Below, piece by piece: positions 29,044 through 60,686 of a DNA stretch of 63,621 nucleotides. The notes below the pieces were generated by a model. That model saw only the letters and a list, made by a program, of their open reading frames with translations, ran no database searches and was not told the origin of the DNA. This DNA comes from Lachnospiraceae bacterium (GTDB lineage Bacteria; Bacillota; Clostridia; Lachnospirales; Lachnospiraceae), in assembly GCA_017518185.1 (NCBI GenBank), contig JAFWWB010000033.1, positions 1 through 63,621 of the forward strand. Direction: 5' to 3'. Position numbers and translations under genes: made by a program. The stretch's first letter is position 1. Each line of letters starts with the position of its first letter.

Positions 29044-29063
29044 CCGCAACCCCTTTTATATCC

Positions 29064-29672: not shown

Positions 29673-31158
29673 AATTTTTTAGATCCGGCAGCTCATCCCT
29701 GCTGATGACAAGCTCCGAGTCGTATACTTTCTTTACCATATCCTCTTCCGTATACTGTTCGGAATACTTTGCAAACTGCCCCGTGCGTACGAACTCTCCC
29801 TGCCAGGTGCAGAAAAAGCCCCACCACGCTCCGTCCCTGGCTGCCAGCTCAGGATCAAAGAGACAGCCGTTCTCACTCATTACCACCATCTTACGGGCAG
29901 GGGTATAATCCGCCGCTTCAAAGAACTTGTTGGTCTGGGGTGTATAGACATGCTCGCCGGGATAGAGATCCTCGCCTATGATATCCACATACTCATCCCC
30001 GGGATACCAGTCCTTATCCTGACCGTTCCAGATCCAGATAAGGTTGTGAAGACCGTATTCATTCCGGAATTTATCATACATGGTGATATACAGCTGCTTA
30101 TAGGCTTCGGCGCCTGACGCGCCCCACCAGAACCAGCCGCCGGCAGCCTCGTGCAGGGGTCTCCAGAGCACCGGGACTCCCGCATCCTGAAGCTTTTTAA
30201 GCTCTCCCGCGATAGCCTCCATATCACGTTCCAGCAGGACATAGCCCTTCTCATCCTGACCGCTCATTATAGCCGCAAGATCTATATCTGTATATTCTTT
30301 ATAGAAACCGCTGTACCACTGCCCCGTGAGATAATCCTCGGGGGCGTTCCAGTGCCAGCAGAAGGTTACTATACCGCCCTTGTTCCAGTAATCGATGGCG
30401 AAATCCGTGGCATGGCCCTTGCTTCCGTTGGCCACTCTGGAAGGAGTATACTCGATGAAGTCAAGGCCAAGGACAGCAGGATATTTACCGCCTGCCGCAT
30501 CGGAGACCGCGTTCATATCCAGACCTATCATGCCTGTGTCGCAGTACTGTCCGGAAAGGATGTGGTTTCCGTAGATGTCCTTGAGATATTTGAAAAGCCG
30601 CTTTGTCTCCTCCGTGGCATCGGGATCGGTAAGCTCGTAATCCGCCGCGTAGATGGCGGGATCGATATCGTCGGAAGGCTTCACCTTAAGCCTGTCGAGC
30701 TTTATCCAGCCCCAGAACTTCGTCACCTCCACCTCATGGCTTCCGGGAGTCATATAGACGCGGCTCAGCACGGAGTCGGTATAGTCTTTGCTCTCGGTAA
30801 CGATGGTCCCCATGGACTCGCCGTCCACTCTCACGTAGTTTTCCTTATAATCCCCGCCGCTGGATGCCGTAAAGGCAAAGTCATAGAAGCCTTCATCCTT
30901 AATATCAACGGTAATGGCAACGCCATCGCCGTCGTCCGCCAGCCCTTCCACATGATCGCCGGAGACCTTTGCAGCCCCAAGGAGCCTGCCTTCTTCAGCT
31001 TCGTATATGTCTGCATCATCCCAGGAGTAGGTCCTGACATCTGCAGCTGCCTGTGTGACAGGCTCCGTGGAGGGAGCGCTTACAGTTCCTTCTTCCCCGC
31101 ATGCCGCCAACGTAACAGCCGACAGAGCCGCAGCCGCGAAAAACCTACTTTTTTTCAT
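29665..31158 (-). CDS. GH26 beta-mannanase lipoprotein with CBM35-like domain
   Basis: This 497-residue surface lipoprotein (lipobox TLAAC, Cys20) has a CBM35-like domain (about 50-160: IYEAEEGRL, GFYDFAFTASSGG, GSHEVEVTKFWGWIKLDRLKV). A GH26 catalytic domain (about 180-480) follows, with acid/base Glu337 in RPLHEAAGGWFWWG and nucleophile Glu429 in VVMSENG. GH26 enzymes hydrolyse beta-1,4-mannans. The ribosome site GGAGG lies in the 3' end of trmO, and the frames overlap by 14 nt. The enzyme starts the sugar-uptake operon and is the main evidence that the operon handles mannan. Some GH26 members act on other beta-glycans, so the exact substrate is not settled. Confidence 0.93.
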   Translation of the reverse strand: MKKSRFFAAAALSAVTLAACGEEGTVSAPSTEPVTQAAADVRTYSWDDADIYEAEEGRLLGAAKVSGDHVEGLADDGDGVAITVDIKDEGFYDFAFTASSGGDYKENYVRVDGESMGTIVTESKDYTDSVLSRVYMTPGSHEVEVTKFWGWIKLDRLKVKPSDDIDPAIYAADYELTDPDATEETKRLFKYLKDIYGNHILSGQYCDTGMIGLDMNAVSDAAGGKYPAVLGLDFIEYTPSRVANGSKGHATDFAIDYWNKGGIVTFCWHWNAPEDYLTGQWYSGFYKEYTDIDLAAIMSGQDEKGYVLLERDMEAIAGELKKLQDAGVPVLWRPLHEAAGGWFWWGASGAEAYKQLYITMYDKFRNEYGLHNLIWIWNGQDKDWYPGDEYVDIIGEDLYPGEHVYTPQTNKFFEAADYTPARKMVVMSENGCLFDPELAARDGAWWGFFCTWQGEFVRTGQFAKYSEQYTEEDMVKKVYDSELVISRDELPDLKNYE

Positions 31159-40334: not shown

Positions 40335-40559
40335 TCACCCCCTGAGCTTCTCAATGAGTTCGTAAAGCGCCGCTGCGGTATTGAAGTTTTCCGGCAGAAG
40401 ATCGTTAACGTTGATCTCGATGCCGAACTCCTCATTCACCTCGTTTACGATGGAAATGATATCAAAGGAATCCAGGATATCATCATCGATGAGATCCTCG
40501 GCGGTAGTGAAATCTATATCAGGCCTTACCTCACTCATTATCCTTATCAGCTGATCCAT
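40335..40559 (-). CDS. Acyl/aminoacyl carrier protein, DltC-like
   Basis: This 74-residue carrier protein has the phosphopantetheine attachment site in LDSFDIISI (Ser of DSF, about residue 31), an acidic helix II and the typical four-helix length. GGAGG lies 6 nt before the ATG, and it overlaps the adenylation gene by 29 nt, so the two are made together. It most resembles DltC, which carries D-alanine, but here an amino acid other than D-Ala may be loaded. It is the last gene of the Dlt-like module. Confidence 0.9.
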   Translation of the reverse strand: MDQLIRIMSEVRPDIDFTTAEDLIDDDILDSFDIISIVNEVNEEFGIEINVNDLLPENFNTAAALYELIEKLRG

Positions 40560-42060
40560 AGTTGCCCTCCTTTATCATCTGCTTTAATAACGCCCTGTCT
40601 ATCTTGGCATTCTTATTCATGGGGATGGCCCTGTAGCGGACATATTCCGTGGGCCGCATATATTTCGGCAGCTTTTTCGCAAAAGCCTCCAGTATCTCTT
40701 TCCTGCGGGGTTCTGCCGACTGGTAGAAGCATACGATGGCTTCCTTTGACGCGTCATAGAGGCAGCATCCCGTATCTATCCCGCCAACCGAGTTCAGGAC
40801 AAGCTCCAGTTCTCCCAGCTCTATCCTGTGGCCCATATGCTTTATCTGGGAATCACGTCTCCCTGCGAAGACCAGTTCGCCCCTGTCATTATAATACCCT
40901 AAATCTCCGGATACGTAAACCTCGGATCTGTAGCCTCCGGCCAGGGGGTCCTGTATAAAGGCCCTTTCCGTCATTGAACTGTCATTTATATACCCAAGCG
41001 CCAGACAGCTGCCGGCTATGCAGATCTCCCCGATGACGTTCTTTTCGCTCACACGGCGTCCCTCTTCATCCCTGAGGAATACCCTGGAATTGACAAAGGG
41101 CTTTCCTATGGGTATGGCCTGCGCAGGATCCGGAGCTTCCTTTATCTCGTGGTAGGTACAGTTGCAGGTGATCTCAGTTGGACCGTAAAGGTTCACATAG
41201 CGCGCTTCCGGTATATGCTCCCGCCAATAAGCCAGGACCCGTCCAGGCATGGTCTCTCCGGAGAACATGACGTTCTTAAGCTGCGGAGGTTCATTTACGT
41301 CAAAGGTCTTAAAGTCCGCGACTATCCTCAGCGCCGAGACAGCCCAGATGATCGTATCTGCCTTCCGTTCCCTGAGATGCTCTGTCAGGAGCTTAGGCAT
41401 CTTAAAAAGCTTCTTCGGGAGAACTTCAACCCTGCCACCCACATATAGGGAATTATAGATATCCTTTACCGACACATCGAAATCGAAGGGAGCCTGGTTG
41501 GCGAATACCGTGCCCTCTTCAAAGTGGAACGCCTCCTCAAAAGCCTGCACCATATCCAGCACGGATCTGTGTGAGATAAGGACTCCCTTAGGGATCCCGG
41601 TGGAGCCTGAGGTAAAGATGGCGTAAAGGGGATCCGTGTCAATGTTAACAGACGGCTCATACGCTTTCCCCCTGTTCTCCGAAACAATTGTCTCGAAGCT
41701 TACCGCTCCGGGGACATCGTTCTTTTTGTTTCTCGCATCGATGATGAGCAGCGGAGAAGTCCTCTCGTATATCAGACTTATCCTTTCCTCCGGAAGGGAC
41801 ATATCCACGGGAACATAGTAATTCCCGCTGTAAGCTGCGCCCAGAAAGCAGATGATGCTCTCCACGTTCCTGTCTATGAGGACAGCCACAGCCTTTCTCC
41901 GTTCCCCGGGAGCCCGGGCTTCTATCCCGGCTGCTATGGCCATTGCCTTCTCCCTGTACTCCCTGTAGCTCAGCTCTTTTTTATCGTCCGCAAGGGCGAT
42001 CCTGTCCGGATGCGCTCCCGCGGCTCTGTCCAGTAATCCCGTAACATCGTACAGCATCAT
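40531..42060 (-). CDS. Amino-acid adenylation enzyme, DltA-like
   Basis: This 509-residue member of the acyl-adenylate-forming superfamily activates an amino acid and loads it on the adjacent carrier. Core motifs are IFTSGSTGIPKG (A3), FDFDVSVKDIYNSL (A4, with the Asp that binds an alpha-amino group), NLYGPTE (A5), YVSGDLG (A7), GRRDSQIKHMGHRIELGE (A8) and NAKIDR with the catalytic Lys (A10). DltA enzymes have a Cys in FCGE (Cys269 in B. cereus) that helps select D-Ala. Here the position reads FSGE, so the substrate may differ. It overlaps the formyltransferase by 4 nt and the carrier gene by 29 nt. Confidence 0.92.
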   Translation of the reverse strand: MMLYDVTGLLDRAAGAHPDRIALADDKKELSYREYREKAMAIAAGIEARAPGERRKAVAVLIDRNVESIICFLGAAYSGNYYVPVDMSLPEERISLIYERTSPLLIIDARNKKNDVPGAVSFETIVSENRGKAYEPSVNIDTDPLYAIFTSGSTGIPKGVLISHRSVLDMVQAFEEAFHFEEGTVFANQAPFDFDVSVKDIYNSLYVGGRVEVLPKKLFKMPKLLTEHLRERKADTIIWAVSALRIVADFKTFDVNEPPQLKNVMFSGETMPGRVLAYWREHIPEARYVNLYGPTEITCNCTYHEIKEAPDPAQAIPIGKPFVNSRVFLRDEEGRRVSEKNVIGEICIAGSCLALGYINDSSMTERAFIQDPLAGGYRSEVYVSGDLGYYNDRGELVFAGRRDSQIKHMGHRIELGELELVLNSVGGIDTGCCLYDASKEAIVCFYQSAEPRRKEILEAFAKKLPKYMRPTEYVRYRAIPMNKNAKIDRALLKQMIKEGNYGSADKDNE

Positions 42061-42887
42061 TCTTCTCCCAACTCTTTTCCGAGACTTAAGCCTATCACCA
42101 TGCCGTCTTTATCTATCACCATATCGCCGCCGGACTCCGGTCTGTTTATCCGGTAGCCGGTGATGATCTTTTCCTTTCCACAGCTGAGTATCCGCGGATC
42201 TCCCAGGGTCTTTGCCGGGCCGTAATCCATGGCGCGCAGAAAGGCGCTGATCTTAGCTGCGGGCCAGTCCGGATCCAGCAGTCCGCCGCCCGGTATCTCA
42301 TAAGAATAGTGCAGCTTATCACCGCGGTTCTCCTGTTTAGTCCCCGAAAGGCTCCCCTCCAGGAGCTTATCCATAAAGCCCGCAAAGGCTTCCACAGCCA
42401 GGTCGTTCTGTATCTTCAGAAGCTGCCAGGATGTGATATCTTCAGAAAGCCTTACCTTTCCCTGACTTATGATATCACCGCCGTCGACGTCAGAAGTGAT
42501 GAAATGCCAGGTCACTCCGCCGTATTCATCCCCTTCAAATATGGTCCAGGCCTCAGCATTCCTGCCGGGATGGGAAGGCAGCAGCGCATGATGAAGGTTT
42601 ACCGCCGTAACCCGCGGATCCTCCACGATACGCCGGGGTATGATGTAGGGATTCGCGGCGCTGATCAGAAGTATGCTTCCTTCCAGGCTGCCGATATCCG
42701 CAAAGGTCCCCTTCTTATCAAAAAAACGGTATTCCGCATTCTCAGTCTTTTCCGCCTGTCTCTTCAGATACCAGGAAGCCTCCTCATTGGTATCGTAGAG
42801 TATGACCTTCTCTCCCTTATCGGAGAGCAGACGGGTGCAGCTTTTTGCCAGGGCCCCGTTTCCCAATACACAGATATTATCGTACAA
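42057..42887 (-). CDS. Formyltransferase family protein in the Dlt-like module
   Basis: This 276-residue protein of the formyltransferase fold transfers formyl from 10-formyl-tetrahydrofolate to an amine. The catalytic residues are all visible: N97 and H99 in AVNLHHALLPSHPGRN and D135 in DVDGGDIISQ. A short C-terminal domain (about 190-276: GGGLLDPDWPAAKISAFLRA) resembles those of sugar N-formyltransferases and of the formylating domain of linear gramicidin synthase. It lies between the SGNH and adenylation genes, 5 nt and 4-nt overlap away. It could formylate the carrier-bound amino acid or an amino sugar of the glycan. The first is favoured by position. Confidence 0.88.
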   Translation of the reverse strand: MYDNICVLGNGALAKSCTRLLSDKGEKVILYDTNEEASWYLKRQAEKTENAEYRFFDKKGTFADIGSLEGSILLISAANPYIIPRRIVEDPRVTAVNLHHALLPSHPGRNAEAWTIFEGDEYGGVTWHFITSDVDGGDIISQGKVRLSEDITSWQLLKIQNDLAVEAFAGFMDKLLEGSLSGTKQENRGDKLHYSYEIPGGGLLDPDWPAAKISAFLRAMDYGPAKTLGDPRILSCGKEKIITGYRINRPESGGDMVIDKDGMVIGLSLGKELGEE

Positions 42888-42892
42888 GCTCT

Positions 42893-44254
42893 TTACTCCT
42901 TATCGTACTCCATCCACGCAGGCACGGGATCTTCCGGGGATAAAGCCGCCGTCACCTTCAGCGTGTATGCGCCCTCGGGTTTTTCAAAGCTTACGGAACC
43001 GCTCTCTGACCAGTCCGCCACCGTTTCAAAGCTCTCCCCTCCGTCCGTGGAGAGCTCAAATCTGTACAGCGGTATAACCCCGTCATTATGAAGGCTTTCA
43101 GCCTTTGCACTGCAGATGCCGTCCTCCTCTGAGATCTTTGCGCTCACCGCAACGATCCGGTCTACATCCGCTTTCAGTTCATCAAGATCCTTATAAAAAT
43201 ATCCCGAGGTATCCTCTCCGCGCATGTCCTTTCCGAGTATCTCCGCATAGAGACGGCTGACCCTGCAGGCTCCTTCCCCGCTGAGATGGACATAGTCCGT
43301 CATACAGTCATCGCCCAGGAATTCCTCCCTGTCCTTCAGGTAGTTGAGGTTGTGGTATATAAGCCCCCGTTCTTCAGCGTAGCTTTCCAGAAATTCCTCC
43401 GCCTCCTGATAGCCCTCAATATGATACAGGTTCATAAGGGACATGGGCGGCGCAGCGAGATAAAGCCTTATGTTATTTTTCTCACAGTAATCCGCTATGG
43501 CGTCGATGTATTTCATGTTTCCTTCGATAACGGCATCCGTTGAAAAGCTGTGAATCCCCTCGTCCATTATTGGGATATTGCCCTGCTCACAGCGGTGATT
43601 TGCGTATACGAAGCCCTTGCCGCAGTAATAGTGGTCCGCGGAGGTATTGGGTGTAAACCCGTTCTTCCGGTAATCCTTCCACTTTGCAAGACCTGCCTTT
43701 ACGGTATCAAAACGCAGGTCATAGCGGTATCTGTAGGCCGGAAAAAGCTCGGGCCACACCGGGGAGCCCAGCTTCCTTACCATACAGTCAAGACGGCCTG
43801 CCGCCGTCATCCTGTCATAGACCATAAGGGTGCTCTCAGTGATCTGGGCATCCGTTGCAAATTCCAGCGGTGAGGTCCACTGTACTCCCAGCACCACGGC
43901 CTTCGGCTTTATCTGCCTGTCCAGGTCCTTAAGGAACATATAGCTGCTCTCGGGCCTCTGGGTGCCCGTACCGCCGTTTATGACGCAGCCAAGCCCCAGT
44001 TCCTCTTCAAATATCTCCGGTGCAAAAGAGTGGAACACACGGGAGGTCCCCAGGAAGAGCAGGTCCGCCTCCGCTCCCTGATCCGAAAGCTCCGCTATCT
44101 CATCCTTAAAATACACCGCGCTGTTTACGGGCGTCAGCAGCCGGCCCAGGGCATATTCCCCCGTCAGAAAGAACGCAAGGGTCAGAAGCGGCAGCAATAT
44201 TCTCTTTATAAGCTTTCCCTTAGAAGTTTGCATAAATGAATCCCTTTGAGACAT
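42893..44254 (-). CDS. SGNH-hydrolase-like membrane-anchored protein (DltD/AlgX-like)
   Basis: This 453-residue protein has one N-terminal membrane helix (about 17-37) and an extracellular SGNH-like domain with the nucleophile block LLFLGTSRVFHS and the late DxxH-type motif MTDYVHLSGEG. A small beta domain (about 350-453) ends it. Proteins of this class work with MBOAT transporters to move acyl groups to polymers outside the cell. AGGGGA lies 5 nt before the ATG, and it overlaps the MBOAT gene by 35 nt. It is thus the probable final transferase of the module. The exact catalytic step is inference. Confidence 0.85.
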   Translation of the reverse strand: MSQRDSFMQTSKGKLIKRILLPLLTLAFFLTGEYALGRLLTPVNSAVYFKDEIAELSDQGAEADLLFLGTSRVFHSFAPEIFEEELGLGCVINGGTGTQRPESSYMFLKDLDRQIKPKAVVLGVQWTSPLEFATDAQITESTLMVYDRMTAAGRLDCMVRKLGSPVWPELFPAYRYRYDLRFDTVKAGLAKWKDYRKNGFTPNTSADHYYCGKGFVYANHRCEQGNIPIMDEGIHSFSTDAVIEGNMKYIDAIADYCEKNNIRLYLAAPPMSLMNLYHIEGYQEAEEFLESYAEERGLIYHNLNYLKDREEFLGDDCMTDYVHLSGEGACRVSRLYAEILGKDMRGEDTSGYFYKDLDELKADVDRIVAVSAKISEEDGICSAKAESLHNDGVIPLYRFELSTDGGESFETVADWSESGSVSFEKPEGAYTLKVTAALSPEDPVPAWMEYDKE

Positions 44255-45791
44255 CGCTTCCCCTGGTCATCATCATTATCATCAGCATCATAAGAGCATA
44301 TATGAATGCCCTTCCGGCAAAAGGCATCCTGCCCTTCACCTTCTCCCATTTCCCGGTCTCCCTCAGTACATCGGTTATGATGAGGAATATCACGCCGGCT
44401 CCGCATATTATCAGTTCTTCCCTGTACATGCCCACGAAGAAGCCCGAAGGGTTAGCCAGGGCTCCTATGCGCAGATCCTTAAAACAGTGGCCTATGGTGC
44501 TGAAGGCCACTCCCACGGAGGCGGAGATACTGAAGAAGCGGAAAAAGCTCACCAGCAGAAAGGTCCTCAGCATACAGAAGCCTTTCCACAGTTTCCCTTC
44601 GGAGTTTATATGAAGACGGTTCTTTACGTGCTCGTAAAGATCACCCAGCTGCATGGTGCTGACGATCACGAGCAGGTTCAGATATCCCCAGACCAGAAAG
44701 GTCCAGTTGGCCCCGTGCCAGAGACCGGTGGCGGTCCATACAAAGATAAGTGCAAAATAACCGCTGATCAGCTTGGCTGCCTTGGGTCCCCATTTCTTTC
44801 TTGCCCACTTGGAAAGCTTAACGCCGGTCTTCCCCATGGATACGGGATAAAACACATAATCTCTGAACCAGCGGCCCAAAGTGATGTGCCATCTCCTCCA
44901 GTATTCGTCCACGGTCCTGGCAAAATAGGGCATGCGGAAGTTCTCTGCAAGCTCTATCCCCAGTATGCGGCAGAAACCGCAGACCATATCCATATATCCG
45001 GAGAAATCTGCATAAAGCCTTATGCTGTATACCAGAAGTGCGAATATGATATGGACTCCGCCGTAATTTTCATAATCTCCGAGTATCATCGTTACGGTCG
45101 ATGCAAGGGGATCCGCTATCACCACTTTCTTGAAAACGCCAAAGAGTATGCGCGCGCAGCCCTCGTAAAGCCTGTCTGCCGAAAAGGAATGCTCCTCTTT
45201 CAGGGACTTTCCCAGCAGGTCATAACGGCTGAAGGGCCCCTCTATCATGTGGGGGAAGAAGGAAAGGAAGGTAAAAAACTTAAGAAAGCTCCGTTCCGCC
45301 GGATACTTTTTCCTGTACACATCCACGATGTAGCCTATGGCATGAAAGGTATAAAAGGACATGCCCAGGGGAAGGATGAGCTCCGGGATCCCGATCTCCG
45401 TGACGCTGCCCGAGAGCCTCAGCAGGGCGTTTATATTGCCCAAAAGAAAGGCTCCGTATTTTATCACTATCCAGGTCCCGAGTATACCTGCCACGGCAGC
45501 GGCAGTGATGAGCTTCTTCTTTTTCAGAAGGGTCTTCTGAACCTCCCCACGGTCCTTACCCGCTTCCTGCGCTTTACCGGCAGAGGCGGCCGCCTTCTCG
45601 AGCAGCAGCGCCGCAAAAAAGCTGAGTATCCCCGCAGATACAAGATAGATCAGATAAAAGGCTCCGTGGGTACAGTAAAAAAAGACATTCGCCGCAAGGA
45701 GCACCGTCCACTGCAGCTTTTTCGGAACTATGAAATATAACAACGCCACGGCCAGCGCAAACAGCAGGCATCGTGTCGATACAAGCACCAT
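44220..45791 (-). CDS. MBOAT family O-acyltransferase, DltB-like
   Basis: This 523-residue polytopic protein of about 11 helices has MBOAT signatures: YWRRWHITLGRWFRDYVFYP and the catalytic-histidine motif TGLWHGANWTFLVWG. It resembles DltB and AlgI, which pass acyl groups across the membrane. It begins the five-gene module, and the ribosome site GAGGGAG lies somewhat far upstream (11 nt). A charged insert (about 70-100) with a Lys-rich run lies between early helices. The acyl donor would be the carrier protein encoded at 40335. Confidence 0.93.
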   Translation of the reverse strand: MVLVSTRCLLFALAVALLYFIVPKKLQWTVLLAANVFFYCTHGAFYLIYLVSAGILSFFAALLLEKAAASAGKAQEAGKDRGEVQKTLLKKKKLITAAAVAGILGTWIVIKYGAFLLGNINALLRLSGSVTEIGIPELILPLGMSFYTFHAIGYIVDVYRKKYPAERSFLKFFTFLSFFPHMIEGPFSRYDLLGKSLKEEHSFSADRLYEGCARILFGVFKKVVIADPLASTVTMILGDYENYGGVHIIFALLVYSIRLYADFSGYMDMVCGFCRILGIELAENFRMPYFARTVDEYWRRWHITLGRWFRDYVFYPVSMGKTGVKLSKWARKKWGPKAAKLISGYFALIFVWTATGLWHGANWTFLVWGYLNLLVIVSTMQLGDLYEHVKNRLHINSEGKLWKGFCMLRTFLLVSFFRFFSISASVGVAFSTIGHCFKDLRIGALANPSGFFVGMYREELIICGAGVIFLIITDVLRETGKWEKVKGRMPFAGRAFIYALMMLMIMMMTRGSDVSKGFIYANF

Positions 45792-45907
45792 CGTACTTAA
45801 AGCTCCCTCACCAAGGCATAATCATACATTTTCATAGTTTATTCCAACGGACAGTGCGTGTCAAGCGCATATGGGCTGCCCTGAAGCCTGCAAAAAGAAA
45901 GAATACA

Positions 45908-45936
45908 TTGATTTTTTTCCTGCAATGCTCTATAGT
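45908..45936 (+). promoter_or_regulatory. Promoter of the TupA-like gene
   Basis: TTGATT (45908-45913), a 17-bp spacer and TATAGT (45931-45936). Transcription would start near 45943, about 55 nt before the ATG. It also lies in the 206-bp gap upstream of the divergent MBOAT gene. Confidence 0.65.
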
Positions 45937-45997
45937 CTTGATGTCGGCCCGGCGGGGTATCCGCCACATACCTGAGGCCGGCAGGACCGGAGTATAC

Positions 45998-46864
45998 ATG
46001 AAAAAACTGAGAGAGAGCCTCCGCCGCATGAAGCACGAATGGATGTGCGCGCATGATCCGGCAGGGGAAACGATAAAATACTATACCGCAGTCTTCGGAA
46101 AAGCTCCGGACTTTGAGCATCCCCGTACCATCAATGAGAAGATACATTATCTGAAGCTCTTCAGATATGCTGAGGATCCGGTGGTGGCCGGCTGCGCCGA
46201 CAAGTACAGGGTACGGGAGTATCTGACGGAGCATGGGTATTCGGATATACTTCCCGGACTGCTGGGTGCATATGACCGCCCGGAGGATATCGACTGGGAT
46301 GCGCTCCCTGAACGCTTTGTCATAAAATGCAACCACGGCTGCGGCTACAATATCATATGTAAGGATAAGAGCAGCCTGGATATCCCCGATGCTGTAAGCC
46401 GGCTAAAAAATTGGATGAAGCAGGACTACTGGAAGGAATTCTGCGAGCTCCATTATAAAAACATCAGAAAAAAGATCATCATAGAAGATTATCTCGGTGA
46501 TGATATCGAAACCTACAAATTCTACTGCTTTAACGGCATCCCCAGGATCATATATGCCATGACCTCTGAGGGAGATGTCCATTACGTGGATTTCTTTGAT
46601 GGGAACTGGGAGCATCTGGATGTTCACAGGACAGACCGTCCCGGGGTTCCCGATCCATCAGCCATAAAAAAACCTCCCCATCTCGATGAGATGCTGAGGC
46701 TTTCCGCCGAACTCTCCGCTCCCTTTCCCTTTGTGAGAGTGGATCTCTATGACCTTGAGAAGGTTTATTTTTCGGAGCTCACCTTCACCCCTGCCGGAGG
46801 TTTCCTGAAACTGGATCCCTCAGAGGCAGAGGCAGAATGGGGCAGCTGGATTGACATGGGCTGA
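45998..46864 (+). CDS. TupA-like ATP-grasp polysaccharide biosynthesis protein
   Basis: This 288-residue protein matches the TupA-like ATP-grasp family (TINEKIHYLKLFR, ADKYRVREYL, FVIKCNHGCGYN, IIEDYLGDDIETYKFYCFNG, PFPFVRVDLYDL). TupA helps form the teichuronopeptide of alkaliphilic bacilli, and many members lie in surface-glycan loci where they may attach amino acids to glycans. The ATG at 45998 is preferred over the far longer frame, which lacks support. It is the only plus-strand gene in the locus, transcribed away from the Dlt-like module, and ends 24 bp from the convergent gene. Confidence 0.88.
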   Translation: MKKLRESLRRMKHEWMCAHDPAGETIKYYTAVFGKAPDFEHPRTINEKIHYLKLFRYAEDPVVAGCADKYRVREYLTEHGYSDILPGLLGAYDRPEDIDWDALPERFVIKCNHGCGYNIICKDKSSLDIPDAVSRLKNWMKQDYWKEFCELHYKNIRKKIIIEDYLGDDIETYKFYCFNGIPRIIYAMTSEGDVHYVDFFDGNWEHLDVHRTDRPGVPDPSAIKKPPHLDEMLRLSAELSAPFPFVRVDLYDLEKVYFSELTFTPAGGFLKLDPSEAEAEWGSWIDMG

Positions 46865-46888: not shown

Positions 46889-48484
46889 TCAGGCACTGAC
46901 TCCCCTGCTCTCTCCCCTGCGGTAGTACTCCGTCCCTTCTATGCCGTGTTCCTTTATATAGTCCGAAACTCTGCGGCAGATCTCGTCATTATACTTTTTC
47001 GTTCCCGTATTCTTTTCGAAATACTGCACTGCCATATCGTCCAGCATCCCGTTATACATTCCCTTTACAAGCTCCGCGAACTCATCCCTGAAGGCAAGGG
47101 TATTGAGGCCCTTCAGATTGTTCAGATAAAACACCTCTCTTGCTTTGGATGTCTGCCCGGGCGTCAGCCGCTCCACGGAAGCTATATCCTTAAGCACCCT
47201 GTCATAGGCCTCCCGGCTCTCCGGCTCAATGGTATATCCAAAGCCATGATAATAGGGCTTCCCAACGATGATCACCGGGATCCCGAAGCAGGAAAACTCC
47301 GCTCCTGCATTGCCTCCTATGGTTATGAGCACATCCGCCAGATCCCTTATGCTCTCGGCGCTCACATCCTCCGGGAGCAGGTAGGTATTGTCCTTCTTAT
47401 GCCGTTCGAACATCGCCTCTATGGAATCCGCCGATTCATGGTAGGCCTTCCTGGTGGGATGGGGTTTAAGTATCCAGTTCACCTCCCCGTTCTTTCCCGC
47501 CTCTATCAGAGTCTGCTCCAGCCAGTCATAATAGTCCCTGAAATACAGTCTGCCGTAATTATATACCGCATCCGTAAAGGTATGGGCCATGATCACCGCG
47601 TTCTTTTTCCCGGGATCCAGTCCGAGCCGCTTCGTGAGTTCCTCCCTGCCGGCCACCTTCTTCCCGCAGAAAGCACCCTTATCCAGCTTCCTGCCGTTCT
47701 TTCCGCTGAAGCGGTCCTCCAGCATCTTCTCCGCCTTTTCTGACACATCTTCCCCGGAGGCCTTCATGCGTTCGATCACACGTTCATGCATCCAGCCCGA
47801 GCGGCGCACAGTGCTGCCGTCCTCATTGAAGAGCACGCGCTCCTCCGCCACCTGGCTCACATTTACGATCTTCGCTCCGTGCCTGTTGAAGATGCCCAGC
47901 TGGATCGCCTCATGGTAAGCCAGATCATCGGCTATGCAGCAGGCAGGGGGATATTTCTTAAGATGCCCCGAAAGGGCGTAGCACATCCAGAGGATGTGGA
48001 GCATTTTCTTTGCGCAGGTCTTATTCCTGGCAGACCTTATCGTTGAGAGTCCCGAGGTGCGTATTATGTCCTCATACAGATATCTTCCGGCAGGTACATC
48101 GAAAAGGCGTATATCCTGCATCCCTTCCCCGCTGCCGTCCGAAGCAAGAAAACCGGCAGTCTTCAGGAAAGCCCTGAAGCCGGAGCCGGGAGACTGCCTG
48201 TCAAGGCTCTCCAGGCACAGAAGCTTAAAGCCGAAGGCCTCCACCAGTTCCCGGAAAAGGGCATTCTCCCTCCAGGTGATGACATATACGCCGCAGCCGC
48301 TCTTTTCGGAAAGTCCTGCGGCATAAAGGAGTTTCGGTAGCACCCAGGCTATCTGCAGACGCACCATGGAAAGATTTACGTAGATATACCTGCTGCTTAC
48401 CGCATCCCTGCAGCGGTGCTCCGCACAGGCGGAAACAAGCCCCTTAAGGGCATCCTCGCTTATGGGAAAATCCTCTTTTCTCAT
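46889..48484 (-). CDS. Putative capsule/glycan glycosyltransferase (GT-B-like)
   Basis: This 531-residue protein is not assigned firmly. The C-terminal half has a GT-B-like pattern seen in capsule synthesis and CDP-glycerol transferases: WILKPHPTRKAYHE, LADVLITIGGNAGAEFSCFG, IPVIIVGKPYYHGFG. A Lys/Arg-rich middle separates it from an N-terminal Rossmann-like part (VYVITWRENALF). It overlaps the glycosyltransferase upstream by 4 nt and closes that operon. A role in making the surface polymer is likely, and the donor sugar is unknown. Confidence 0.72.
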   Translation of the reverse strand: MRKEDFPISEDALKGLVSACAEHRCRDAVSSRYIYVNLSMVRLQIAWVLPKLLYAAGLSEKSGCGVYVITWRENALFRELVEAFGFKLLCLESLDRQSPGSGFRAFLKTAGFLASDGSGEGMQDIRLFDVPAGRYLYEDIIRTSGLSTIRSARNKTCAKKMLHILWMCYALSGHLKKYPPACCIADDLAYHEAIQLGIFNRHGAKIVNVSQVAEERVLFNEDGSTVRRSGWMHERVIERMKASGEDVSEKAEKMLEDRFSGKNGRKLDKGAFCGKKVAGREELTKRLGLDPGKKNAVIMAHTFTDAVYNYGRLYFRDYYDWLEQTLIEAGKNGEVNWILKPHPTRKAYHESADSIEAMFERHKKDNTYLLPEDVSAESIRDLADVLITIGGNAGAEFSCFGIPVIIVGKPYYHGFGYTIEPESREAYDRVLKDIASVERLTPGQTSKAREVFYLNNLKGLNTLAFRDEFAELVKGMYNGMLDDMAVQYFEKNTGTKKYNDEICRRVSDYIKEHGIEGTEYYRRGESRGVSA

Positions 48485-49614
48485 ACGGCAGCTTCCTTCC
48501 TGTGTTTTCTCCTGTAGCAGCGGTAGGCTGCTGCCGTGCGCCTCATCTCCTTAGGCGACACCAGCCTGTACCTGTCACCGGGATTGAGTTTAAGCCCTTC
48601 TTCATCCAGCTTGTACCTATCGGGAAGAACGTTGTCAAAATATTCGTCATCCTTTTCCATTTCCTTGATGACGGCATATGCCTTCTCATACAGGGCCGCG
48701 CGTAACCTGTACTTAAGCTCTTTTAAAGGTCCCGTCTTCTCGGTATAGAAACGCTGCTGGAACATCCTGTCATAGCGCTTGTTGCGGATTATCTTCTTCG
48801 GGTACTTTATCGGGAATTCCATTTCCCCGCGTTCCACTTCGGAAACTTCGGAAACCTTTTCCGCGGTATCTCCGGGATGCTCTCCCCGCTCATCACCCAT
48901 TCCTATATTGTTCACCAGGTCGTATTTCGGGACTATGCCCAGCAGATTATCCGCCCAGACCATAAAGTTCCACTGGTATCCCCAGGTCCTGTACCAGTGA
49001 TACTGGAGATCGTCGAAAACTATGGAAAAGAACTTATAACTGTTCTTGTTGAGTATCCTGCGGAGCTTCATCTCTTTTTTCAGCTCCGGCCAGCGCCTTA
49101 TGTTTACATCATAATTCTTCCAGGCCCTCTTCCAGGTGGCCCAGCCCCAGATGGTGGCGAAAGCGGAAAAGCAGATGTCATCCTTTCCGAAACTCTCTTC
49201 GCCGGGATAGAGGTTCGTCCCCGATATCATGGCGATGCGTTCCTCATCCTTATAGTGCTCCAGCATCTCCCTGCAGAACAGGAAAAAGCTCTGTGACGCT
49301 TCGATATCGTCCTCGATGAAGATAGCACTCTCCTCGGTCTCAAATACCCATGCCATGCCGCTGGGCATACGGTAACGCAGGCCCATGTTCTTCTCGGCAT
49401 AGTTCTTATGCACCTCACAGGGCCAGTCTATGTTTTTCTCCAGATATTCCCTTACAGCCTTTACCTGCTGCGCTTCCTTTCTGTCCCTGGGCCCGTCGGA
49501 GATTATATAGAGCTTCGCGGGCTTCAGCTCCCGGATGGGCGCAAAACTCCGCTCCGTGAGATCGAGACGCTTATATACTATCATCACAACAGGTACGTCA
49601 AATCTTTCCATCAT
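48481..49614 (-). CDS. Glycosyltransferase family 2-like protein
   Basis: This 377-residue GT-A enzyme has the start PVVMIVYKRLDLTERSF, the nucleotide-binding segment AIFIEDDIEASQSF (EDD standing for the DxD motif) and FATIWGWATWKRAWKNY, typical of a subgroup found in glycan loci. The C-terminal part (about 260-377) is basic and helical. It overlaps both neighbours by 4 nt. The sugar is unknown. Confidence 0.82.
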   Translation of the reverse strand: MMERFDVPVVMIVYKRLDLTERSFAPIRELKPAKLYIISDGPRDRKEAQQVKAVREYLEKNIDWPCEVHKNYAEKNMGLRYRMPSGMAWVFETEESAIFIEDDIEASQSFFLFCREMLEHYKDEERIAMISGTNLYPGEESFGKDDICFSAFATIWGWATWKRAWKNYDVNIRRWPELKKEMKLRRILNKNSYKFFSIVFDDLQYHWYRTWGYQWNFMVWADNLLGIVPKYDLVNNIGMGDERGEHPGDTAEKVSEVSEVERGEMEFPIKYPKKIIRNKRYDRMFQQRFYTEKTGPLKELKYRLRAALYEKAYAVIKEMEKDDEYFDNVLPDRYKLDEEGLKLNPGDRYRLVSPKEMRRTAAAYRCYRRKHRKEAAV

Positions 49615-50357
49615 CCCTCACCGGCTTCTCTTCTCAGATGCTCCACTTCGTCAAAAGCCCCGGCATGAGTCTTTATCCACTCTTCGTCCTTTTCCCACCA
49701 CCTGAGCTTTTTCAGGAAAGCGATATCCTCCTCCGGAAAACGCATGCGTATGCGCTTCGCCGGAGCTCCCCCGACTACCGAATAGGGTTCCACATCCTTT
49801 ACGACAACGCTGCCGGCTGCTATGATGGCCCCGTCTCCTATCCTGACGCCTTCCATCAGCAGGACTCCGTCCCCTATCCACACATCATTTCCAATCTCAA
49901 GGCAGATCTGCTTTTCCTTATCCAGCCAGCGGAACTCTTCGAAACGCTGCTCCGCGGCATAGGTAAAGCCTGCCTGTTTTCTCAGCGAATAAAAACAGGG
50001 AGAGGTCGATACCCATCTGCGCGAGGGGTGCTGCCCCCGGACTATGCGCACATTTGCCCCTATGCTGCAGTACCTTCCGATGCTGCAGTATTCAAGCTTC
50101 GAGCCCGGTGAGATAAAGCTGCCTCTTCCCATTACGGACTGATAGAGCTCTCCCCATATCACGTTCTTCCCTTCCAGCCTGCAGTCAAAAGCAACGCCGA
50201 GTATACGGCAGTCACGCCCAAGCTCAGTCTTAAGGCTTATGTCGCTTTTTCTGGAAAAAACGCTTCCGGTCTGCCTGTGGAGCTTCGCCATGCGGGCCCT
50301 TATGGCGATCCTGCGGACAAAACTCCTTATGCAGTCTTTATCGGCTTCCGTTCTCAC
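49611..50357 (-). CDS. Hexapeptide-repeat O-acetyltransferase (CatB/LbH type)
   Basis: This 248-residue protein forms a left-handed beta-helix. Repeats include YCSIGRYCSIGANVRIV, LEIGNDVWIGDGVLL and VRIGDGAIIAAGSVVVKDVEPYSVVGG, and the active His is likely in VRGQHPSRR. Such enzymes acetylate sugars with acetyl-CoA, as in capsule decoration. The start is GTG (50355-50357) with GAGGG close upstream. It overlaps the next gene by 4 nt. Confidence 0.9.
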   Translation of the reverse strand: MRTEADKDCIRSFVRRIAIRARMAKLHRQTGSVFSRKSDISLKTELGRDCRILGVAFDCRLEGKNVIWGELYQSVMGRGSFISPGSKLEYCSIGRYCSIGANVRIVRGQHPSRRWVSTSPCFYSLRKQAGFTYAAEQRFEEFRWLDKEKQICLEIGNDVWIGDGVLLMEGVRIGDGAIIAAGSVVVKDVEPYSVVGGAPAKRIRMRFPEEDIAFLKKLRWWEKDEEWIKTHAGAFDEVEHLRREAGEG

Positions 50358-50397
50358 AGTCCCTCTTTATCCTCCGAAATATCCCTGATCTGTCTGT

Positions 50398-51387
50398 TCA
50401 GATCTTATTTATATCCAGTGTGCCCGGGTCCGTGCTGCCCATGGTCCCCAGGAACCAGCAGTGAATGTATTCGTACCCCTCGGACAGTATATAGGCTCCG
50501 GTGGCACCGCCGGTATTGGCCGTCACCAGGCAGTTACAGCGTGAAAGATACCATATAGCCGCCAGATAGGTTATGTTCATGGCGATGGCATTCTCCCGGT
50601 AATCAGCCTGCTGTCCAAGCTTTACCTCCTGCTTTCCGCGGTAGCGCTTCTGGTCCAGATACATAAGGCTGTCCCCGAAGCTCTCCTTCAGTATATCCAG
50701 AAGCTCTTCGTCCTCGGTCGCCGCAAAGACGCCGTCACAGGAATACTCCTCCTTAACGGCCCTGAGCTTTTCGATCAGTGTATCCTTATCGGGCTGGACC
50801 GCGTGTCCCACGCCAAGGCTCAGGTAATCCGTTCCCCTGGCCAGCACTCCCAGCCAGCGCTTTTTTGAATCAAACGCAGCTTTATACTTATCTATCTCTT
50901 CGAGCACGGGCTTTGAAAAATGCAGGTACTTCTTACACAGTTTTCTCCAGTAGGCACTCTGCTGCGGCTGCCTGGTAAGGTGCAGAAGCCCTCCCTCCGG
51001 CATCCTGAGATTTTCCAGCACTATGACATTCTTTTTATTCTTTACCTCAGCAAATGAGACTCCCGCAGGCTGCTCAAAAAAGGCCTCCCACACATTGGTA
51101 TCCTTCCGCTGCGCATCGCTTACGAAGATATTTTCCTTCGTCTGCATATCCATCACCGGGATATAGCCGTGCTGTATGCTGTAGCTTATGCCTGACAGCC
51201 CCTTAAGAAAGTAATTGAAAAGCCCGCCTTCATCGCTGTACATGCGGAGTACGCAGTAGATATCTTCCCTGCCTCCGTATTTTTCCAGCACCTTTGCATT
51301 GCGCGCATCCTGCCGGTTCTTTTCTATCTCACGCAGATCTCCTGCGATCAGCGTCCTTGTTTTTCTGTAGAAACTCTTTAAGCTCAT
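50398..51387 (-). CDS. Possible fucosyltransferase-like glycosyltransferase
   Basis: This 329-residue protein has a segment WLGVLARGTDYLSLGVGHAV that resembles the GDP-binding region (HxRxxD) of fucosyltransferases of the NodZ/O-FucT type. The following DGVFAATEDEELLDILKESF and CLVTANTGGATGAYIL match the same fold. It also carries an N-terminal helical part. The family call is made from these motifs only. It lies in the middle of the glycan operon, 6 nt after a GT2 gene, with ribosome site GAGGACAT. Confidence 0.6.
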   Translation of the reverse strand: MSLKSFYRKTRTLIAGDLREIEKNRQDARNAKVLEKYGGREDIYCVLRMYSDEGGLFNYFLKGLSGISYSIQHGYIPVMDMQTKENIFVSDAQRKDTNVWEAFFEQPAGVSFAEVKNKKNVIVLENLRMPEGGLLHLTRQPQQSAYWRKLCKKYLHFSKPVLEEIDKYKAAFDSKKRWLGVLARGTDYLSLGVGHAVQPDKDTLIEKLRAVKEEYSCDGVFAATEDEELLDILKESFGDSLMYLDQKRYRGKQEVKLGQQADYRENAIAMNITYLAAIWYLSRCNCLVTANTGGATGAYILSEGYEYIHCWFLGTMGSTDPGTLDINKI

Positions 51388-51393
51388 ATGTCC

Positions 51394-52365
51394 TCAGAAA
51401 TGAAGGAGATACCTGAATATATCCCCCCGTCCTATGTCAAATGCCTTCAGCTTCCCGTCAGCCATGCGCTGCATAAGGAAGAGCGCTTTTCTGATGTTTG
51501 AAGAATCCTCATAGAAAGACAGCTCATCAAACAGCTTTATATAATTCCCGATCTCCTCCCGGTAGTCTGCAGGCATTTCCTCTCCTTTGGCTTCCACAAG
51601 GGTCTTAAGCCTGTCCCTGTGGCGTTTCAGGTAAAAGAGCACCTTCTGTATCTGGGTTATATCCTCTTCCCTGCCGGATCTTTTGACCGCCTTTACGCCC
51701 ACGGTATTCTTTCCGTGCTGTCTGTACAATGTCAGGTTCTTATCGATGGCCGCTACATTGCCGTATATGGGCGCCGTGATGGCAAGCCAGCTGTCATGGA
51801 GCCAGCCCCCCTCCGCCGGTATGGGAAAGGCCTTTCTGGCAAAGCCGGATCTGAAGGACATCATAGTGCCGGGGACGGCCCAGTAATACATCAGCAGCTG
51901 CCTGTATTTCTCCTGCGAAACATGATCGCACAGTCCCGCTCTCCTCAGGTTTAAGGCGCTCCACACATCGTTTCCGAGAGGTTCAAGTTCTGCGCCCACC
52001 AGCTCACCGTTACTGAAAACGAACACACAGTCCGGGTCTGTCGCGTACTCCACCATCATATGTTTTATCTTGTCCCGCTGCCAGATATCATCCTGGTCGG
52101 AGGTAAAGATCACGTCCCCCCTGCAGGCGTTTATGCATTTCACGAAAGAGCGCTTTACTCCCAGGTTCTCTTCATTCCGGATAAGCCTGTATCTTATGCC
52201 TCCGGCCTCCAGCACTCTTTGGGCGATATCGGCCGTACGGTCCCTGCTGCAATCGTCCAGCAGGACTATCTCATCCGGCGGACAGCTCTGGGATATGATG
52301 CTGTCCAGCTGGTCTTCTATAAATCTTTCTCCGTTATAACAGCATAATGCAACGGATGTCGTCAT
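51394..52365 (-). CDS. Glycosyltransferase family 2 (rhamnosyltransferase-like)
   Basis: This 323-residue GT-A enzyme has SVALCCYNGERFIEDQLDSI, IVLLDDCSRDRTADI, and VIFTSDQDDIWQRDKI with the metal-binding DQDD. This pattern is common in rhamnosyltransferases of surface glycans. The C-terminal region is helical. It overlaps the glmS stop by 4 nt. Confidence 0.88.
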   Translation of the reverse strand: MTTSVALCCYNGERFIEDQLDSIISQSCPPDEIVLLDDCSRDRTADIAQRVLEAGGIRYRLIRNEENLGVKRSFVKCINACRGDVIFTSDQDDIWQRDKIKHMMVEYATDPDCVFVFSNGELVGAELEPLGNDVWSALNLRRAGLCDHVSQEKYRQLLMYYWAVPGTMMSFRSGFARKAFPIPAEGGWLHDSWLAITAPIYGNVAAIDKNLTLYRQHGKNTVGVKAVKRSGREEDITQIQKVLFYLKRHRDRLKTLVEAKGEEMPADYREEIGNYIKLFDELSFYEDSSNIRKALFLMQRMADGKLKAFDIGRGDIFRYLLHF

Positions 52366-54188
52366 TCCACAGTCACCGATTTTGCCAGGTTCCTGGGATG
52401 GTCCACGTCATAGCCCTTGCCCACGGATACATAGTAGGCAAAAAGCTGGAGAGGGATTATGGCCAGTGAATTTGCAAAGAAGGGATCCGTGTGAGGAATG
52501 TAGAGCACATAGTCTGCCTCCTTCTCGATCTCCTTGCGGCCTCTCTCTGCCACCGCCATTACAAAGGCTCCTCTGGCTTTTACTTCCTTTATGTTGCTCA
52601 GGGTCTTGGCAAAGAGCTCAGGCTGGGTCGCCACAGCCACCACCAGAGTCCCTGGCTCGATAAGGGAGATGGTGCCGTGCTTGAGCTCTCCTGCAGCATA
52701 GGCCTCGGAATGTATATAGGATATCTCCTTAAGCTTGAGCGATCCCTCCAGGCCAATAGCATAGTCTATGCCCCTTCCTATGAAGAACACATCCTTTGCC
52801 GCCACATATCGGTTCGCAAAATGCTGTATCTTTTCCTTCTGTCCCAGCAGGAGCTCTATCTGGTCCGGCAGCGCACAGAGATAATCCATAAGCTCCGAAT
52901 AGCGTTTATCATCGATAACACCCCGCACTCTACCCAGCTTCATGGCCAGCAGGTAAAACGCCGCAAGCTGGGCGCTGTAGGCCTTGGTGGTGGCAACAGA
53001 GATCTCCGGGCCTGCCCAGGTGTAGAACACGCTGTCCGCCTCCCTGGCAATGGAGCTGCCGACAACATTGACTATGGCCAGCACCTTGAGTCCCTTAGCC
53101 TTGGATTCCCTTACGGCCTCCAGTGTATCCGCAGTCTCGCCGGACTGGCTGACAACTATCACCAGGTCATTCTTTGAGAGTATGGGATCGCGGTAGCGGA
53201 ATTCGCTGGCCACATCCACCTCCACGGGGATCCTCAGCATCCCCTCTATCACGTACTTGGCCGTAACGCCGGTATGGTATGCGGAACCGCAGGCCACGAT
53301 ATGTATGCGGCTTATGGCCTTAAGCTCTTCGTCGGTGAGTCCGAGCCCTTCTATCTCTATCTTTCCGTCGCGGATACGGGGCGAGATGGTATCGGTCACG
53401 GTTTTGGGTTCCTCATAGATCTCCTTGAGCATGAAGAACTCGTATCCGGCCTTTTCAGCCGCATTGGCATCCCAGTCGATGGTCACGGGCTTCTTCTCTA
53501 TGCTCTCCTCATCCACGGTAAAGAAAGAGACCTGATCCGCCTTCAGCATGGCGATCTCCTGGTTATCCAGATAATATACGCTGCGGGTGTACTTAAGGAT
53601 CGCCGGAACGTCGGAGGCGATGAAGCATCCTTCATCGCTGTGTCCCACGATGAGGGGACTCTCCTTCCTTGCGGCATAGAGCTCATCGGGATGGTCCGCG
53701 AACATTATGCCCAGCGCGTAGGAACCCTCCACACGGTGCAGCACCTTTGTTATGGCCTGAAGGGGATTGCCGCTGTAATAGTAATCAAGGAGCTGTGCCA
53801 GCACCTCGGTATCGGTCTCCGAAGCGAAACTGTAGCCCTTATCCGTAAGCTTGGTCTTAAGGCTCATGTAATTTTCGATGATGCCGTTATGCACCACCAC
53901 AATGGTCCCCTCTTTGTTGGTATGGGGATGGGCATTAAGATCGCTGGGTGCGCCGTGGGTAGCCCATCTGGTGTGTCCTATACCCGAAAAGCCCGGCATA
54001 TTCTCTCCGCTGTGGGTCAGGTTCTCCAGCACCGCCAGGCGTCCCGCGGCTTTTTTTGTAACTATCTTCTCACCGTCATAGACAGCGATACCGGCAGAAT
54101 CATAACCTCTGTACTCCAGCTTTGAAAGTCCCTCCAGCACTATGGGCGCCGCCTGTTTCTTTCCTATGTATCCAACTATTCCGCACAT
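52362..54188 (-). CDS. glmS: Glutamine-fructose-6-phosphate aminotransferase (isomerizing)
   Basis: This 608-residue enzyme makes glucosamine-6-phosphate, the first step to UDP-GlcNAc. The N-terminal glutaminase begins with catalytic Cys2 (MCGIVGYIGKK), followed by two sugar-isomerase domains (VACGSAYHTG, VSQSGETADT, GRGIDYAIGLEGSLKLKE) and the C-terminal HPRNLAKSVTVE. The ATG at 54186-54188 is required to expose Cys2, and GGAGG lies 8 nt upstream. The stop of the preceding GT2 overlaps the start by 1 nt (TGATG). I see no glmS ribozyme sequence in the window. Location inside a glycan operon is unusual for this gene. Confidence 0.97.
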   Translation of the reverse strand: MCGIVGYIGKKQAAPIVLEGLSKLEYRGYDSAGIAVYDGEKIVTKKAAGRLAVLENLTHSGENMPGFSGIGHTRWATHGAPSDLNAHPHTNKEGTIVVVHNGIIENYMSLKTKLTDKGYSFASETDTEVLAQLLDYYYSGNPLQAITKVLHRVEGSYALGIMFADHPDELYAARKESPLIVGHSDEGCFIASDVPAILKYTRSVYYLDNQEIAMLKADQVSFFTVDEESIEKKPVTIDWDANAAEKAGYEFFMLKEIYEEPKTVTDTISPRIRDGKIEIEGLGLTDEELKAISRIHIVACGSAYHTGVTAKYVIEGMLRIPVEVDVASEFRYRDPILSKNDLVIVVSQSGETADTLEAVRESKAKGLKVLAIVNVVGSSIAREADSVFYTWAGPEISVATTKAYSAQLAAFYLLAMKLGRVRGVIDDKRYSELMDYLCALPDQIELLLGQKEKIQHFANRYVAAKDVFFIGRGIDYAIGLEGSLKLKEISYIHSEAYAAGELKHGTISLIEPGTLVVAVATQPELFAKTLSNIKEVKARGAFVMAVAERGRKEIEKEADYVLYIPHTDPFFANSLAIIPLQLFAYYVSVGKGYDVDHPRNLAKSVTVE

Positions 54189-55120
54189 CAGATAAACCTC
54201 CAATATCCTTTATTCATGGTAAATGCTTTTATGAGAAGCCTGGGGAGTTTTTTGTAAAGTTTCCCAAGCCTGTAGCCCGCAAGCTTTGCCGCAGCTCCCA
54301 CCAGAACGGGTATCAGCAGCCGAAACAGCCTTCTGCGTACCAGATATCCCGTCATCCCCCGCATCATCCTTATGCCCTCCGAGGAAGAAGATATGCCGCC
54401 GAAGACATCCGGATACTGTGCCTGTGAGACCCCGAGATCAAAGTTCCTCCTGAACTGCTGGAGGGGTGTGTAGCTGTGGCTGTGGAGCACCCTTGCCTCC
54501 GCCACATAGGCAATGCTACCGCCTGAATCTATGAGGTGCCTGGCATAAACCATATCCTCATTGAATATCATGTCCTTCTCGAAACCGCCGGCTGCCGTAT
54601 AGGTCTTTTTGTCATAGGCAGCGCAGGCGTTGGAGCAGAAGAAGGTCTTTATGCCAAGAGTGTGCAGGTCAGCAGCACTCTTGATGCATGACACCAGCGG
54701 ATAGTTGAAACGCCTGGAAAACTTTTCCGAAATATCCGCGTTCTTTCCCGCCAGCTGTCTGGCATAGGCTGCCTGGGCCTTTCCCTCCTCTATGGGCTTC
54801 ACAAGCCTCTCCACCAGGTATCTGTCCAGGGGCAGGGCGTCATCCGTCATGCAGATGAATATGTCCGCATCTGACATGGCCGCCGCCATGCGCCTGGTGG
54901 TCCCGTGGTCGAACTGCTCCTTGAAGATGTGCCTTATCTTCACACCCTTAAGAAAATCCTCATCTCCCGTGAATACGGAATCGAAATATTCCTTCCCCGT
55001 ATTTATGATGATGATCCTGTTCACGGGATGGGTCTGGCGCTTCAGCCTCTCTATGAGTTTTTTTAGTCTCAGATCCGGCCTGTATACCGGAATGATGATG
55101 TCTACTGTCATATCCGTCAA
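54188..55120 (-). CDS. Glycosyltransferase family 2 (rhamnosyltransferase-like)
   Basis: This 310-residue protein has VDIIIPVYRPDLRLKKLIER, the acceptor-side DADIFICMTDDALP (DD pair of the DxD-like motif) and SNACAAYDKKTYTAAGGF. The last 50 residues are hydrophobic and basic and may contact the membrane. It overlaps glmS by 1 nt and the sugar-phosphate transferase by 4 nt. Confidence 0.88.
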   Translation of the reverse strand: MTDMTVDIIIPVYRPDLRLKKLIERLKRQTHPVNRIIIINTGKEYFDSVFTGDEDFLKGVKIRHIFKEQFDHGTTRRMAAAMSDADIFICMTDDALPLDRYLVERLVKPIEEGKAQAAYARQLAGKNADISEKFSRRFNYPLVSCIKSAADLHTLGIKTFFCSNACAAYDKKTYTAAGGFEKDMIFNEDMVYARHLIDSGGSIAYVAEARVLHSHSYTPLQQFRRNFDLGVSQAQYPDVFGGISSSSEGIRMMRGMTGYLVRRRLFRLLIPVLVGAAAKLAGYRLGKLYKKLPRLLIKAFTMNKGYWRFI

Positions 55121-56526: not shown

Positions 56527-56569
56527 CTCCGCCTCTACCGATGCCTAAAGATAAAAACACACAAGATAT

Positions 56570-60677: not shown

Positions 60678-60686
60678 GTTCCCGCT

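Follow-up and report, generated by a model that had tools for sequence, protein, structure and literature searches.

A five-gene module that probably installs a tailored aminoacyl group on the cell envelope is encoded in the 63,621-nucleotide contig JAFWWB010000033.1 of a Lachnospiraceae bacterium (assembly GCA_017518185.1), hereafter the window. The genes encode an MBOAT membrane O-acyltransferase, an SGNH-type protein, a formyltransferase, a stand-alone amino acid adenylation enzyme and a carrier protein. With moderate confidence, the module is interpreted as a carrier-fed MBOAT-SGNH system for envelope acylation, in which an N-formyl-aminoacyl group would be made on the carrier and then esterified to a surface polymer. 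The formyltransferase is no stray neighbour of this module, and its steadiest partner is the carrier system. Related operons of the same family frequently encode a decarboxylase in place of the formyltransferase, and the two have not been found together.

Organization of the module

As a sequence-only reading of the window had reported, the five genes form a single run on the minus strand at 40335-45791, confirmed here by inspection of the open reading frames (ORFs). The junctions, from the MBOAT gene to the carrier gene, are an overlap of 35 nt, a gap of 5 nt, and overlaps of 4 and 29 nt (Table 1). Two residue assignments of that reading also hold. Asn97, His99 and Asp135 of the formyltransferase are invariant among 13 aligned formyltransferases, and the Asp of motif A4 is retained by the adenylation enzyme as D195 in a motif alignment.

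Table 1. Positions of the module, its diagnostic residues and the adjacent genes within the window
Feature	Position	Strand	Remarks
MBOAT membrane O-acyltransferase	44220-45791	-	523 amino acids; Pfam MBOAT 49.2 bits
FIYANF acyl-shuttle hexapeptide (FXYXXF)	44223-44240	-	final six codons of the MBOAT ORF; motif definition from PMC12148441 (in part)
SGNH-type extracytoplasmic acyltransferase (predicted)	42893-44254	-	453 amino acids; single N-terminal hydrophobic segment; beta-rich C-terminal part
Formyltransferase	42057-42887	-	276 amino acids; TTG start; Formyl_trans_N 64.9 bits
Formyltransferase N97 codon	42597-42599	-	
Formyltransferase H99 codon	42591-42593	-	
Formyltransferase D135 codon	42483-42485	-	
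Stand-alone amino acid adenylation enzyme	40531-42060	-	509 amino acids; Pfam AMP-binding 208.1 bits
FDFDVSVKD (A4 motif)	41461-41487	-	signature of the adenylation subfamily of the window
Carrier protein	40335-40559	-	74 amino acids; PP-binding 28.2 bits
Carrier phosphopantetheine Ser31 codon	40467-40469	-	in DSF
TupA-like ATP-grasp gene	45773-46864	opposite strand	separates the module from the glycan cluster
Neighbouring glycan cluster	46889-61415	-	five GT2, initiating sugar transferase, phosphohexomutase, GATase/SIS, hexapeptide acyltransferase, Capsule_synth

The probable MBOAT-SGNH export pair

The MBOAT protein of the window ends in exactly FIYANF. As described in the available part of PMC12148441, MBOAT enzymes acylate a Tyr within an FXYXXF peptide at the C terminus; the peptide in turn passes the acyl group to an SGNH partner. 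This shuttle peptide sits on the DltX microprotein in the Dlt system and is fused to the MBOAT enzyme in PatA, and that of Neisseria gonorrhoeae PatA is FIYANF, identical to the window (PMC12148441, in part). Export should therefore take the known MBOAT-SGNH route, in this case fed by a carrier. Other features of PatA/PatB and similar fused-shuttle pairs are likewise present, namely the conserved MBOAT His and the SGNH Ser-Asp-His residues. Both H302 and H359 of the MBOAT protein are invariant among 10 aligned homologues, while in the SGNH protein H323 is invariant and S71 and D320 occur in at least 90% of 32 aligned rows. The SGNH protein has no Pfam match, and its structural model adopts the SGNH/GDSL fold; a fold comparison matched it to DltD and PatB, among others. 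The window differs from PatA/PatB pairs in adding an adenylation enzyme and a carrier, since MBOAT-SGNH pathways other than Dlt operate without such a carrier according to the same partial source (PMC12148441). The export chemistry thus seems to resemble that of MBOAT-SGNH pairs with a fused shuttle, and the adenylation enzyme and carrier would be the acyl source.

Within 79 related loci, 68 MBOAT ORFs were recovered, and these end in the strict FXYXXF motif (27) or in a relaxed form, [FLMPV]xYxx[FY], such as LIYAGF (40), with the remaining ORF interrupted by the end of its contig. A second operon of this kind lies in the genome of the window (L042, contig C62, 6073-12350), encoding an adenylation enzyme, carrier, transglutaminase-like protein, MBOAT and SGNH protein with no formyltransferase. 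Its MBOAT protein ends in FIYNQF, and in its SGNH protein GDC replaces the G-x-S of most others.

The formyltransferase and its partners

The sequence-only reading had staked its case on the formyltransferase recurring beside the other genes in other genomes, and it does so. At E 1e-16 or better, the formyltransferase was matched in 13 of 397 draft genomes that sample the larger family; two of these proteins (G149 and G114) are Fmt-like and 11 belong to the subfamily of the window. A twelfth member was found in G1106, from another family of the same phylum. Profile searches recovered only the genome of the window and G1106 among 398 genomes of the phylum (E 1e-33), and 28 of 391 genomes of the class (E 1e-25), where the matches besides the window include G179 (9e-104) and G751 (1e-36) and the rest span 4e-30 to 7e-26. 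The 12 formyltransferases form one clade (support 100/99) in a tree with six Fmt-like and two other formyltransferases. The formyltransferase of L044, a locus in a Bacteroidales metagenome-assembled genome and the only one found by a scan of genome contigs with the formyltransferase as single query, groups with the Fmt-like controls.

An adenylation enzyme and a carrier are encoded within 7 kb of the formyltransferase in 11 of the 12 clade loci, an MBOAT protein within 9 kb in nine, and all three within 9 kb in eight loci of eight genomes. None of the eight control loci has any of these three genes within 9 kb, the controls having been hand-picked from earlier matches, some with a short flank on one side of the formyltransferase (L044, L127). 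The profiles used to classify loci were built from few members, mostly these same loci (L128 excluded), and the matches are in part a product of their construction; support independent of the profiles comes from Pfam for L038 and from BLAST against the proteins of the window and L042 for the other loci. Across nine loci, formyltransferase and adenylation enzyme distances correlate (Mantel r 0.69, p 0.008).

Three of the clade loci pair the formyltransferase with a carrier system where no MBOAT gene lies nearby. The gene order of L128 is adenylation enzyme-formyltransferase-carrier-KASIII, while L064 contains adenylation enzyme-carrier-KASIII with the formyltransferase 7 kb away, and L038 places a carrier and a class-II aminoacyl-tRNA synthetase-like ligase alongside it. 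This persistence favours a carrier-bound substrate over an amino sugar of a glycan. As observations in their own right, L128 (5875-11020) and L064 (8839-18248), from two families, may transfer a formyl-aminoacyl group to another acceptor through their KASIII-like enzymes, and the cluster of L038 (1-9048) brings together the ligase and the clade formyltransferase with two carriers, two AMP-binding enzymes and transporter genes of the ABC and FtsX-like kinds.

The kinship of the formyltransferase weighs on the other side. It has the fold of the nucleotide-sugar N-formyltransferase family, which includes WbkC, PseJ and ArnA, and its nearest sequences are sugar formyltransferases, with WbkC the best match. 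Sugar formyltransferases also head its fold list by a narrow margin; as an arbiter between sugar formyltransferases and Fmt, the fold comparison did not separate the two. These points, along with the GATase/SIS (GlmS-like) protein of the adjacent glycan cluster, count against a carrier-bound substrate. They would instead suit a formyltransferase acting on an amino sugar, either nucleotide-linked or within the glycan, with the other four proteins attaching an unmodified aminoacyl group to the polymer that carries this sugar. This alternative, also raised by the sequence-only reading, is unlikely. In addition to the loci with no MBOAT gene nearby, the clade stands apart from the PseJ-like formyltransferase of L127, which lies inside a pseudaminic acid gene cluster (1718-7550) and served as a contrast. 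Judged by similarity to two L127 proteins, no amino-sugar nucleotide genes lie near the formyltransferase of the window, and such genes occur in only one or two of the 12 loci, as a DegT aminotransferase in L128 and a weak dehydratase-like match in L060; both types are present in L127, the source of both queries.

The F-A-PCP region of the linear gramicidin synthase LgrA resembles the module in linking an Asn-His-Asp formyltransferase to an adenylation enzyme and a carrier. However, the proteins of the window are separate, no peptide synthesis is seen, and the LgrA F domain is not the closest solved relative of the formyltransferase, scoring 69 bits against 119 for WbkC. The gramicidin-like formylation proposed by the sequence-only reading therefore finds no special likeness behind it.

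A decarboxylase as the probable alternative tailoring gene

The FDFDVSVKD signature of the adenylation enzyme occurs at 80 places in 78 of the 397 family genomes, and is enriched where the formyltransferase is found (8 of 11 genomes, vs 70 of 386 others; p 1.6e-4). A pyridoxal phosphate (PLP) decarboxylase gene accompanies it at 66 of these loci, each scoring 253 bits or more, and a formyltransferase gene at seven, the window included. No locus has both, six have neither, and one contig is too short to judge. MBOAT is encoded on the same strand within 6 kb at 66 loci, 53 with the decarboxylase and seven with the formyltransferase. The commonest order is adenylation enzyme-decarboxylase-carrier-MBOAT-SGNH, and the formyltransferase occupies the decarboxylase slot in L056, L057, L058, L060 and L061, with a different order in the window and L062. 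At E 1e-30, no homologue of the L135 decarboxylase is present in the genome of the window, nor in 10 of the 13 other genomes tested.

Of these decarboxylases only that of L135 was compared, and its best PDB match is BtrK, the L-glutamyl-[BtrI carrier] decarboxylase (2e-37). In butirosin biosynthesis BtrK converts glutamyl-BtrI to the γ-aminobutyric acid (GABA) derivative GABA-BtrI (PMC7857480, in part), and in vicenistatin biosynthesis VinN/VinL/VinO load methylaspartate on a carrier, with decarboxylation following (PMC11284099, in part). The module shares with both systems a stand-alone carrier that would be loaded and then served by a dedicated editing enzyme, and BtrK-like genes replace the formyltransferase in related operons. 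It differs in its formyltransferase and in a product that should reach the envelope rather than an antibiotic. Loss of an α-carboxyl on a carrier is possible only if the thioester is on another carboxyl, so the simplest reading is that this adenylation subfamily loads its substrate by the distal carboxyl. Because adenylation enzymes of the same signature pair elsewhere with a BtrK-like decarboxylase, the amino acid of the window is probably Asp- or Glu-like. The simplest common reading would make decarboxylation and formylation alternative edits of a carrier-bound amino acid. For an exosortase-linked ligase/decarboxylase/carrier trio, a literature search yielded one paper with single mentions; matches to the NCBIfam models TIGR03098 and TIGR03099 fall below cut-off.

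These same pathways lend some weight to a transient role for the formyl group, as protection against cyclisation or other reaction of a γ- or β-aminoacyl thioester, with later removal leaving the mature polymer unformylated. PMC11284099 (in part) describes a protect-deprotect sequence for the amino acids that vicenistatin biosynthesis holds on a carrier, and names it for butirosin as well. The recurring gene set, however, includes no deprotecting enzyme, although many neighbours are unnamed and no search was aimed at deformylases, and a protecting role is considered improbable.

Several decarboxylase loci are of separate interest. The 66 loci exemplified by L135 (5424-10906), L166 and L170, which encode an adenylation enzyme, a BtrK-like decarboxylase and a carrier, with MBOAT in 53 of them, are predicted to decorate a surface polymer with β-alanyl or GABA esters. 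At 13 loci, L168, L169, L177, L187 and L198 among them, the decarboxylase gene lies beside the adenylation gene with no MBOAT within 6 kb. Some of these adjoin ORFs of great length, and the same acyl-carrier may serve other users there. At L206 the adenylation gene is split into two ORFs (324 and 182 amino acids) beside the decarboxylase gene.

The adenylation enzyme and its probable substrate

The adenylation enzyme passes the cut-off of the TIGR01733 model (322.8; cut-off 317.4). Its pocket, located in a motif alignment by the pocket positions of GrsA, reads D195, V196, K199, W239, M265, S267, L291, C299, N300 and K486. The pattern DVKW[M/L]SLCNK recurs in six other formyltransferase operons (L056, L057, L058, L060, L061 and L062), while the pockets of L063 and L128 differ. 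A script could read the pocket in full for 62 of 79 signature-bearing enzymes, as DVKW[MLI]S[LVI]CN, and in part for the other 17. By comparison, the DltA proteins of two relatives have the pocket DLMxLCTVAK, in which, with one position uncertain, only the first and last residues are common to that of the window. D-Alanine was set aside as a substrate after this comparison; the loaded amino acid is probably not D-alanine and perhaps an aminodicarboxylic acid. K199 beside D195 would suit an α-carboxylate.

The pocket also bears on the order of the proposed steps. The same gene set would result if the formyltransferase acted first on the free amino acid and the adenylation enzyme activated the N-formyl product. 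The enzyme keeps D195, the Asp that binds the free amine in related enzymes, and the same pocket is found at L132 and L135, which lack a formyltransferase, making this order very improbable.

The dlt operon (DltA-B-C-D with DltX) resembles the module in its adenylation enzyme, carrier, MBOAT and SGNH protein of DltD-like fold, and differs in its pocket, in its separate shuttle and in lacking a formyltransferase. That the module is simply a D-alanylation operon into which an unrelated formyltransferase was inserted deserves hardly any credence: the DltA, DltB and DltC models do match, but with scores of 284.4 bits (TIGR01734; cut-off 559.85), 150.2 (cut-off 375) and 30.5 (cut-off 68), far below the equivalog cut-offs, compared with 576.5 and 558 for the DltA proteins of the two relatives against TIGR01734, and the eight-genome association stands alongside separate dlt operons in two formyltransferase genomes (L129, L130). 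Genome G153 has three systems, namely the dlt operon L129, the decarboxylase operon L135 and the formyltransferase operon L058, which suggests different jobs for each. Beside the dlt operon of L130, a 53-amino acid ORF (3063-3224) ending in PVFIYEQF is likely DltX.

Evolution of the probable tailoring genes

In a quick tree of 85 adenylation enzymes, the nine associated with a formyltransferase fell into one supported set of 19, along with seven rows having neither tailoring gene, two decarboxylase rows and L064. A more careful tree of 35 rows (9 of 9 formyltransferase rows, 7 of 9 neither-gene rows, 16 of 64 decarboxylase rows, L064 and two DltA) did not keep this set: L062 sits beside decarboxylase rows, and L063 and L128 fall outside. 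The formyltransferase label requires seven changes on the latter tree, and a single lineage of formyltransferase-bearing enzymes is rejected (p-AU 8e-35). Accordingly, the shared chassis has acquired or shed the formyltransferase on several occasions. The closest adenylation enzymes to that of the window are those of L173 (55% identity) and L178, whose operons encode a carrier, MBOAT and SGNH protein and neither a formyltransferase nor a decarboxylase.

Proposed pathway

From these data we infer a series of reactions, together with the nature of the amino acid and of the acceptor. The adenylation enzyme, judged by its family and conserved motifs, would charge the carrier with an amino acid, probably Asp- or Glu-like and held through its distal carboxyl. 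The formyltransferase would then move a formyl group from 10-formyl-tetrahydrofolate to the amino group of the aminoacyl-carrier, as its linkage, the slot exchange and its Asn-His-Asp residues suggest. By analogy with known systems and from their motifs, the MBOAT protein would shift the resulting N-formyl-aminoacyl moiety outside the membrane to Tyr in its own FIYANF, and Ser71 of the SGNH protein would accept it and esterify a surface polymer, for which the neighbouring glycan is a candidate. The sequence-only reading thus stands in part, for the co-occurrence of the genes and a carrier-bound substrate. Its likeness to LgrA is not supported as written, nor is its loss of charge, since removal of the positive charge of D-alanylation was an assumption.

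A broader scheme can be offered only tentatively. A common chassis of adenylation enzyme, carrier, shuttle-fused MBOAT and SGNH protein may load the same aminodicarboxylic acid through its distal carboxyl, with an exchangeable gene setting the decoration: the decarboxylase would yield a cationic β-alanyl or GABA ester, the formyltransferase an anionic N-formyl-aminodicarboxylate ester, and neither gene a plain amino acid.

Neighbouring genes

The glycan cluster beside the module is a possible source of the acceptor polymer, given its proximity. Its GATase and SIS (GlmS-like) gene lies at 52362-54203, 9.5 kb from the formyltransferase gene. Elsewhere in the window, 24083-31158 encodes a GH26/CBM35 protein, two transporter permeases and a 1005-amino acid protein with a solute-binding domain.

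Significance

D-Alanylation is the best known Gram-positive route for tuning surface charge. The operons described here suggest that many related bacteria may export other, edited amino acids by the same chemistry, with formylation and decarboxylation as alternatives. No paper joining DltB, MBOAT and formyltransferase was found in the open-access literature, nor any on the module, judged by title and the start of the abstract; subscription papers lie mostly outside this search, and absence in print is not established by it. The word N-formylalanine was likewise not found in the open-access papers matched. The scheme predicts N-formyl-aminoacyl and ω-aminoacyl esters on surface polymers. If true, an exchangeable gene on a common chassis would let members of a large bacterial family switch the charge of their surface polymers.

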